A stretch of DNA of 27,556 bases from Allomyces arbusculus (lineage: Eukaryota > Blastocladiomycota > Blastocladiomycetes > Blastocladiales > Blastocladiaceae). The stretch spans positions 1 to 27,556 of the forward strand of contig JADHYV010000139.1 in NCBI GenBank assembly GCA_027604705.1, given 5' to 3'. Of the stretch, positions 1 to 3,129 are shown in pieces. Made by a program: the position numbers and the translations under genes. Position 1 is the first letter of the stretch; each line of letters starts with the position of its first letter. The notes beneath the pieces are model-generated. The model had not been told where the DNA came from, did not search any database, and saw only the letters and a list, made by a program, of their open reading frames with translations.

Positions 1-340
1 AAAACCTAAAAAACCTAAACCTAAAAACCTAACCTAACCTAAAAACCTAAAAAACCTAAACCTAACCTAAACCTAAAAACCTAAACCTAAAAACCTAAAA
101 ACCTAAAAAAACCTAAAAAACCTAAAACCTAAAAACCTAAAAACCTAACCTAAAAACCTAAAAACCTAACCTAAAAACCTAAAAAAACCTAAAAAACCTA
201 AAAACCTAAAAACCTAAAAAACCTAACAAAAACCTAAAAAACCTAACCTAAACCTAAAAAACCTAAAACCTAAAACCTAAAACCTAACCTAAAACCTAAC
301 CTAAACCTAAACCTAAAACCTAAAAACCTAAAAACCTTAA
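1..340. repeat. Telomeric repeat array, C-rich strand
   Basis: The first 340 bases are an uninterrupted run of CCT units separated by 2 to 7 A. On the opposite strand this reads T2-7AGG, always with two G and never GGG. About 45 units are present, with A-run lengths mixed along the whole array and one unit interrupted by a C near position 228. The C-rich strand runs 5' to 3' from the window start, which is the orientation expected for a left chromosome end. The array decays into unique sequence at about 337-345. The usual fungal and animal unit is TTAGGG, so this is a non-canonical heterogeneous telomere. Homopolymer miscounting by the sequencer could add to the length spread, but it would not remove a third G from every unit. 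Confidence 0.93.
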
Positions 341-3129
341 ACAAGAAGGGCCTTATTTGTGTCAAAAGGGATATCGGATCCCCTTTTGCGCAAAGCAAAA
401 CTGGCCGAACATCCACGGCTCCGTTTTATGCGACTATCCCAGGAAGCAGCGATGGCAGGCGAGCATGCCATACTGAATTGCCTCAAAATGCCTCTGCAAT
501 GCTGTTTGTGCTCTCCACAGCCAGATGCATCAACACCAGAGTGGTCAGACGGCAGAGCAGCCGTCAAGTCTCTCACTGGTCGTTGCACTGAGTGGGCCCT
601 CTCATGCAGGGCAATCAGCTGTGAAGCCACCAGCATCATGCCAGGTCACGGCCAGGTCGTGACGTGCAAGATCGACCACCAGCCGCATGCAAGACGCGTT
701 TCGCCGTGGCGTGAGGCACCTTGGCCGGTCTGGGCGGTGTGAGGCCTCCCCCATGGCAGCCCAGCTGGCACAAGCAGACACAACGTCCAAGACGGCAACA
801 CGGTTCACCTGTCTTCAGTCTGTCGAGATGTGGACGCCCGCCAAGCTCGAGATGCCGCCAACCAGGGGCCTGCACCACAAAGGGATGCTGTGCGGCCAGC
901 TTCCCATCCTCAACAAAGCACCAGCGCCACCATGGCACATCCTGACAGTGCACAAACATGACGCATACTTCTCTCTCTACACGAACAGAGAGATTCAGGC
1001 AAGCGTCTTTCTATTGCAGGCCACAAGGTGGCCGGGGTCGTGGCAAGATTGCAGTTGTGGTGGTATGCAGGTGCACTGCAACTGGCATCGCGCCTGCATT
1101 TTGTCGCTCAAGGATTGCATGGCCACCCGCTCCGTGACAAGCAGCAGCCGGACGCGCTGCGAGGTGCTGAGCAGCGGTGGGGGGACGTGTTTGTTGGCGG
1201 GGTTGTCCTGGCACCTCTTTTTGCAAGCGATCAGTGGAGACGTCCCAGCACGTTCTCAAATCGGTTACGAAGGCGCCGAGCGAGCCAGGTGCGGTCGAGA
1301 GACGCCGGCTGCGTCTTGCGTCTTGTGTGTGCTCGGCTCGCGCTGGATGATCGATGGTGCGTCGTGGATTGCCGCTGTGCGGGTCAACCTGCTCACGCTT
1401 GCACCGCGCTTGCGCTCCTCCGCTGGCTTCCACTCATTTGGACGCGCCCTCTCGGGCGGGTCCAATCACGCGCGCACACGTCGATCCTGACGACGACCTT
1501 CCCGCGCGCTCGCTCGCTTGCTCGTCTGCCGTGGTCTCGACCGACCGCCAGCCTGTGTCATGGCGCTGCTCCATTGCCTGTGCGCACGCTGCACGCCGAC
1601 AAGCTCCACACCAACGCCCTCCAGCTGCAGCACGCTCAATACCACCCGACCAAATGCATAGGAGTCGTTGGTCCGGCAACGCTGAGCGCTCCTCGACGAT
1701 GTCGTCCCTCGACCATGGTTTACACGCATACGCGGCTCTGACTGGTTGGAGGCGCCGGGTCGCTCACACTCACGTCCCACACATTCCCGTCGCCTTTCCT
1801 TGCTCAGCACTCGCCGATACCATCGCCATGATTCCACACGGCGTGATGGCGACAGTGGCCGGACCCAACGACAGTTGGATCAGTGTCAAGCACCAGCGCC
1901 CATGCACTGCGTTTGGTCTTCACGCCGACGCCCTCGATCCCGAGACCCCGACCCCAGGAGGACACGCTCTCACGGCGCGCAGCCCGAGATCCCGCGCCTG
2001 CCGTCGTTCTGTGCTCGGCATGCACCGAGCTGGGCTGTCCTGGGTTGCCGAGCCGGCCGTGTCATGCCAACTGACCCCGACTAGTACACACGTTGCTGCG
2101 CCGTGCTGCGTACGGCCGTACGACTGCATTTCGCACCCGCAATATCGGCGGCGTCGCCCGTGCTCTGCGGCCACACGCCGTCGTCGTCTCTGCTCGTACC
2201 GATACCCGAGCTGGAGACGGCGCTGCTCGCGCTCAGCACCACCGCGCCCTCACACGCGTGCACGTGGGCGGTGCATTGTCTGCACGACGACAACGGCAAC
2301 GAAGAGGCCGACGCTGACGGTCATCTGCTCGTCGCTGTGCCGCCTTTGACCACCCCACGCACGCGACGCCATATGATGGCCACGATGTCGTCGAAGTCGC
2401 AGCTGCCGCGCTGCGTTTGACCCAAGTCTGTCGTCGTGGCCACTCTCCGCTCGCACTTCCGCACCGTGCCAGACACCCGGATTACGAACCGCCACGAGGC
2501 GCAACTCGTTGCCGCGCGACGTGCTGGAAACGGATGTGCCGTCGCGCATCGCGTGCGCAACTTTATGCGCCGGCCGATTCGATTGCAGGCCCTGCGCTCA
2601 CCACCCAAAACTGCTCCCCGCGTTCTCGTGTCATGGCCGGCCAGCTGGTAATAGTACAAAGCAGCGGTACGGAGCCTCAACGGGCTCGCTCGTGTTAGTC
2701 TGGTCTTCACTGGTGTTGGTGATCAAGACGTGATCACCAGCTGGCTCAGTGATGGCGCTGAGCTGGGCCGTACCATGGACGATGCCGTGCCTGCAATACG
2801 CATCGAGCTAGTCATCTGCCTCTGCGTCGCCCTCCCCACCCTCTTGACCCGAGTAGAGCGTGCTGTTTGGTTGCGAACGAAGTCGTTTCGGTCTGATCGG
2901 TTTGGCGATGCATTTTTGCGCGAACGCGACTGCCGCAGCTTCCAGATGTCACTGGGGAAGCGTTTGGTGAGAAATGACATTGCACTGTCGTTGCATTCAG
3001 AGTCTGATCGTCAGGAACCCGGTCGACCTCAGGCCGGCCTGGGCCGACCTCGCTGGCGTGCCGACGAACTATCACTTGGCACATTCGCTGTCATCCAGAT
3101 TCGAGACGATAGACTTGCTGCAATTTACC
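341..3129. other. Subtelomeric region without a defensible gene
   Basis: No coding gene is called here. The first roughly 700 bases after the telomere are less G+C-rich than the gene block. Open frames occur on both strands (for example 687-1490 on + and 1011-1433 on -), but they match no family I recognise, overlap one another, and are expected by chance in G+C-rich DNA. Short stretches with protein-like composition lie on the + strand at about 1699-1890, 2103-2345 and 2436-2651. I could not connect them with consistent splice sites, so they may be remnants of a decayed gene or nothing. No tandem repeat beyond the telomere and no tRNA were seen. Confidence 0.6.

Follow-up and report, generated by a model that had tools for sequence, protein, structure and literature searches.

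A terminal T(n)AGG array with a variable T-run at chromosome ends of Allomyces arbusculus

Described telomere repeats and the array of Allomyces arbusculus

The telomeres of Saccharomyces and Schizosaccharomyces are irregular, and it is mainly their G-run that varies. The water-living fungus Allomyces arbusculus (Blastocladiomycota) resembled them in that the unit length changed along a single array; however, its T-run varied while the GG was fixed.

The comparisons in this paragraph draw on excerpts of the cited papers. The canonical fungal telomere consists of TTAGGG, for example in Batrachochytrium dendrobatidis (PMC11797018). Like such fungi, A. arbusculus had terminal arrays of T, A and G with an outward G strand and possessed a TERT gene, but its units contained two G rather than three and a variable number of T, and the TTAGGG probe GGGTTAGGGTTAGGG matched the whole assembly once, inside contig C2 and at no end. 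Microsporidia, another early-branching fungal lineage that lost G relative to TTAGGG, have telomeres reduced to TTAGG and TTAG (PMC13174016); their unit is short and fixed, whereas the T-run of A. arbusculus was variable. Long T-runs are found in Klebsormidiophyceae (TTTTAGG, which was also one of the A. arbusculus classes), Chlamydomonas (TTTTAGGG) and Cestrum (TTTTTTAGGG) (PMC7046594; also PMC7658794), although these are described as having one unit per species and A. arbusculus mixed T2 to T7. Finally, Mimulus lewisii also carries differing unit lengths at the ends of one species, a mixed telomere made by two telomerase RNAs (PMC12169523), but its two units are discrete, in contrast to A. 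arbusculus, in which six lengths were common and T2-T2 neighbours scarce.

No description of a variable T(n)AGG telomere was found in the literature on Allomyces, Blastocladi and chytrid telomeres, covered mostly through titles and abstracts and partly through best-ranked records, and the TeloBase and TelFinder articles named neither Allomyces nor Blastocladi in their main text (data tables apart). As far as searches of these sources reach, a T(n)AGG telomere with variable T was undescribed; it represents a new type of chromosome end in early-branching fungi, beside TTAGGG and the microsporidian TTAGG and TTAG. The suggestion that it was a lineage-specific change is plausible.

The window, i.e. 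the whole stretch of DNA that was analysed (27,556 nucleotides), was the entire contig C139 (1-27556) of an assembly of 25,903,786 bases in 197 contigs. Its PRP22 helicase was 100% identical, over 99% of the query, to a protein recorded at NCBI for A. arbusculus. The first part of the window is a chromosome end of this species, with 46 units by the pattern used (Table 1). The array opened at the first base of the contig as C-strand CCTAA-type units. It comprised the classes T5 (14 units), T2 (9), T3 and T6 (7 each), T4 (6) and T7 (2) as well as one TTTAAGG at its inner edge, and was interrupted once, where TTTTTG was directly followed by TTAGG. Tandem Repeats Finder reported the same span with a score of 282, a period of 8 and 20% indels. 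Since the gene-bearing rest of the window had a GC content of 62%, a chance origin of the array was of no concern and was rejected.

Table 1. Positions of the window features, the array-bearing contig ends (L, left; R, right), protein loci and candidate template places
Feature	Contig	Position	Strand	Remarks
Terminal telomere array	C139 (window)	1..341	-	46 T(n)AGG-type units; G strand points to base 1
Array inner edge	C139	328..341	-	off-pattern unit TTTAAGG; borders unique subtelomeric DNA
Subtelomeric DNA	C139	342..4800		first 4.5 kb without match to 20 other subtelomeres (E 1e-10)
tRNA	C139	4586-4657	-	
RRM protein	C139	9382-10644	-	
PI3-kinase pieces	C139	11885-14199	+	
PRP22-type helicase	C139	17942-21376	-	
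Ion-channel domain	C139	21814-23295	+	
Replication protein A 32 kDa subunit-like frame	C139	24111-25364	-	PDB match 3e-15; no Pfam match at 0.001
Direct repeat, 103 nt	C139	26102-26204 and 27454-27556		98% identical, 1352 apart
Array-bearing ends	C12R, C19L, C29L, C29R, C33R, C34L, C38L			
Array-bearing ends	C58R, C67L, C68R, C72L, C86L, C89R, C91R			
Array-bearing ends	C104R, C106L, C114L, C117L, C127R, C139L (window), C164R			
TERT gene with introns	C8	~19.9-24.2 kb		limits by eye
POT1-like stretch	C26	42123-42488		weak match
Candidate template	C60	71778 on		AAAAAACCTAAAAAACCTAAAAACACCTAA; ~78 nt past end of METTL16-looking open frame (by eye)
Candidate template	C23	178366-178381	-	UAACCTAAAAAAACCT; in ~500-bp gap between two frames (by eye)
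Candidate template	C1	1028124		GAACCTAAAACC inside possible 6-bp hairpin (by eye)
Candidate template	C3	7470		full repeat flanked by CC
Candidate template	C110	31255		full repeat flanked by CC
Candidate template	C23	285590		full repeat flanked by CC
Candidate template	C2	838907		CCC both sides; would write GGG

Units and their order at 21 contig ends

Arrays with the same unit mixture were present at 21 or more contig ends, including that of the window. The ends were located by the words CCTAAAAACCTAAAAACCT (57 matches) and CCTAAAACCTAAAA (126 matches, of which the first 100 were listed); 21 is a lower bound because the CCTAAAACCTAAAA ends come from the matches listed and ends lacking these words escape. 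All 21 fetched arrays (188-501 nt) were terminal T/A/G repeats with the G strand running 5' to 3' outward: the 11 left ends began with the C strand and the 10 right ends closed with the G strand. The description in the earlier note, a telomere of mixed T(n)AGG units, was right and extended to every end found, with next to no GGG. Ends carrying TTAGGG, which would have spoken against it, did not turn up with the single probe used. Contig C29 (284,793 bases) had arrays at both ends; either it was misassembled or it is a complete chromosome of very small size.

The unit statistics cover the 21 ends, with the C117 right and C164 left ends set aside, and were taken from the assembled contigs rather than from reads. 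By hand sum, the arrays held 979 units, 952 of them T(n)AGG, distributed as T1 1, T2 215, T3 141, T4 212, T5 231, T6 99, T7 45, T8 6 and T9 2. The previously proposed range of T2 to T7 applied to the window and to 943 of the 952 units; genome-wide, however, the range was 1 to 9. No class exceeded 25%, and T3 was rarer than both T2 (p 1.0e-4) and T4 (p 1.9e-4). From T3-T9 alone, a fitted bell curve (mean 4.39, sd 1.36) predicted 52.6 T2 units and 11.8 T1 units, whereas 215 and 1 were observed. The arrays were built neither from the fixed TTAGG of arthropods or Microsporidia, which made up 215 of the 952 T(n)AGG units, nor from canonical TTAGGG. The absence of GGG claimed for the array of the window held there (1-341), but 2 of the 979 units ended in GGG, both of them T(n)AGGG and close to the inner edge of the C106L and C58R arrays.

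The remaining part of the unit was nearly invariant. With the innermost 30 nt of every array excluded, 875 of 906 G-runs were GG and 31 were single G, with none longer, and 902 of 903 A-runs were single, the other being double. Single-G endings were tallied by hand in 23 of all 979 units, some irregular units lacked the A (as in TTTTTG before TTAGG), and C occurred within the arrays at the C67L junction only. T2 followed irregular places, a few of which were inner-edge junctions, in 21 of 41 cases compared with 22.6% overall (p 8.6e-5). The composition was alike across ends (chi2 109.5, df 100, p 0.24; permutation p 0.25), and the inner, middle and outer thirds of the arrays looked similar by inspection. 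These units suggest that telomere finders based on a fixed word may miss or fragment such ends.

The order of units was near random, though not wholly. The lag-1 correlation of unit length was 0.107, against 0.021 +/- 0.032 in shuffles, and lags 2 and 3 gave 0.074 and 0.076. In neighbour tests that comprised eleven pair types and two summary counts, chosen post hoc and serving as leads only, T2-T2 neighbours were depleted (30 vs 45.1 +/- 5.1 in shuffles), long-long neighbours with at least 4 T each were enriched (379 vs 351.8 +/- 7.4), and identical neighbours were as expected (178 vs 174.4 +/- 11.3). Given the non-random order, either bases farther back than the last few also play a part or the enzyme exists in different states.

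The longest string of unit lengths shared between ends was 7, equal to shuffles. Homology between subtelomeres (up to 4.5 kb each) was detected in 16 of 210 pairs with 66-98% identity, and the window subtelomere was in none of these pairs. The subtelomeres of C29L, C106L, C114L, C117L and C127R had common blocks of ~83-96% identity, beside some of the arrays.

Possible origins of the variable T-run

The usual explanation for the fidelity of telomerase repeats is that the register is set by an alignment region. The best explanation of our observations, to which we assign a probability of about 0.6, is that the telomerase copies an A-run of its RNA and that the new GGTT end re-pairs with this run in several registers, producing variable units. 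We infer both the template sequence and the registers. The RNA would contain CCU beside an A-run, and the CC would be preceded on its 5' side by two A. In each round, part of the A-run would be copied, followed by U, CC and the two A, giving a new end of ...AGGTT. Once this end is released, its two T, alone or together with the GG, would re-pair at differing positions of the A-run: pairing directly beside the U would yield T2, and pairing farther back would yield T3 to about T7. The expected outcome would be a hard floor of two T, a soft ceiling of about seven determined by the length of the A-run, and a constant AGG. It was proposed earlier that the template slipped on a U-run; slippage as such was plausible, but the run would have to be A, which is copied into T. 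For the telomere-binding system tolerant of variable units that was also suggested, the analysis covered a weak POT1-like match.

Re-alignment was supported by the same mixture at 21 of 21 ends, the concentration of units in T2-T7, the near-constant GG and A, the likeness of ends and of thirds, the lack of shared unit strings beyond shuffles, and the presence of the TERT gene. The two-T floor was the reason for preferring it to plain stutter. Moreover, the T2 excess together with the T1 deficit pointed to re-alignment registers with a two-T floor and fitted badly with symmetric slippage on one run. On the other hand, the order of units was not memoryless and was not predicted by a model of the last four bases, and a favoured GGTT-CCAA pairing should make the longest register dominate, yet T7 accounted for less than 5%.

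A related proposal, which we advance tentatively and with more doubt than belief, is that a telomerase without a strong alignment region re-seats the two-T end anywhere along the template A-run. The unit length would then be set nearly afresh each time, never below two T and at most as far as the A-run allows. If this were true, the telomere proteins would have to read AGG with free spacing. The combination of near-constant AGG and free T separates the fidelity of copying from the register of re-alignment, and the 952 units from 21 ends can serve to test models of primer re-alignment.

The strongest competitor, although an unlikely one, was that the arrays were written jointly by at least two telomerase RNAs, either paralogues or alleles, whose templates differ, e.g. 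for TTAGG and for T4-5AGG with slippage. T2 did stick out from the T3-T9 bell curve, the genome contained several template-like words, and the enrichment of long units after long ones was weakly in favour; according to excerpts of one paper, mixed telomeres are reported in Mimulus lewisii and proposed in Candida tropicalis (PMC12169523). However, a processive TTAGG RNA should yield runs of T2, whereas T2-T2 neighbours were depleted, and there were at least six common lengths instead of two. It was distinctly improbable that telomerase added a fixed unit whose T-runs were later spread by replication slippage or mutation. T-runs are natural sites of slippage, and GG and A barely varied, but under this scenario the older inner units should vary more, while the thirds looked alike, and a single peak would be expected rather than a T2 peak, a T3 dip and nearly no T1.

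Sequencing or assembly error in homopolymers, which could make a fixed unit seem variable and had been named beforehand as a possible refutation, was rejected as very unlikely. Array ends are frequently poorly polished, but with T5 at only 231 of 952 units about 76% of the runs would have to be misread, and the final 2.64 kb of the window's PRP22 frame stayed open across 102 runs of at least 3, 22 of them of at least 4. In addition, there was no dominant unit, there were two peaks, with T3 rarer than T2 and T4, and a hard floor, the GG and the single A were nearly constant, and all ends agreed. Copying of ends from one another by recombination, without telomerase writing them, was likewise rejected as highly improbable in spite of the homologous blocks in 16 of 210 subtelomere pairs, since unit strings were shared no further than in shuffles, the window subtelomere was unmatched and a TERT gene was present.

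Telomerase components and other features of the window

The TERT gene was recognized by a Telomerase_RBD domain (PF12009) across three exons, which exceeded the curated cut-off. Single exons matched RVT_1 (1.4e-4, 0.042 and 0.14) and TERT_C (8.8e-6), all below the Pfam cut-offs. VDIESAFD, SGIPQGG and RFVDDF were readable in its frames, and we take them to be TERT motifs A, B' and C. A homologue search with one TERT exon gave no hits, since the piece was too short for any candidate to have enough words in common with it. The POT1-like stretch scored 28.2 and 26.0 bits, just short of the cut-off of 29.

The telomerase RNA was not identified by whole-genome template-word patterns with the context read at 24 places. 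The patterns cover particular starts and breaks of the template, and templates built otherwise could escape. BCCTAAAAACC occurred at 3 places genome-wide, CCTAAAAACCV at 4 (one within the C19 telomere), CCTAAAAACCTB at 1 (the array edge of the window itself), and TTTTAGGTTN{0,20}C at 21 distinct places by hand count; GGTTTTTTN{0,1}AGGN{0,16}C was also run genome-wide. Of the 25 places with GGTTTTAGGN{0,20}C, 2 (in C1 and C3) were among those read, and the other 23 (A4 places, each with CCTAAAACC) stood outside the 24 together with C16:285858-285870, an A6 place of the GGTTTTTTN pattern. Seven of the 24 places carried a full repeat flanked by CC on both sides. The C2 candidate was rejected as a wrong template on account of its CCC flanks.

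Rfam, at a loose threshold, gave three weak, unrelated hits but no telomerase RNA at the seven candidate loci. Six of these loci (all except C23:285590) were also scanned for pseudoknots over their first 900 nt with a home-made procedure. Nothing was found at four; 9 of 60 shuffles attained the score of the C60 locus, and 1 of 60 attained that of the C2 locus. The C60 tract was the longest candidate, and the GC content was lower for ~1 kb downstream, with open frames there of up to 221 aa. As a template, it would give GGTG or T5 and T6 in a fixed order, units that were not seen: GGTG was counted 0 times in the arrays, and T5-T6 neighbours matched shuffles (24 vs 23.5). This internal telomere-like tract is a telomerase RNA candidate but may therefore be an interstitial remnant. 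In the candidate word 5'-UAACCUAAAAAAACCU-3' (minus strand) at the first C23 place in Table 1, AA on one side and A7 on the other would correspond exactly to the limits T2 and T7.

At the other end of the window, the second copy of the 103-nt direct repeat reached the end of the contig. The pair resembles a short element of LTR type that is cut by the contig break.
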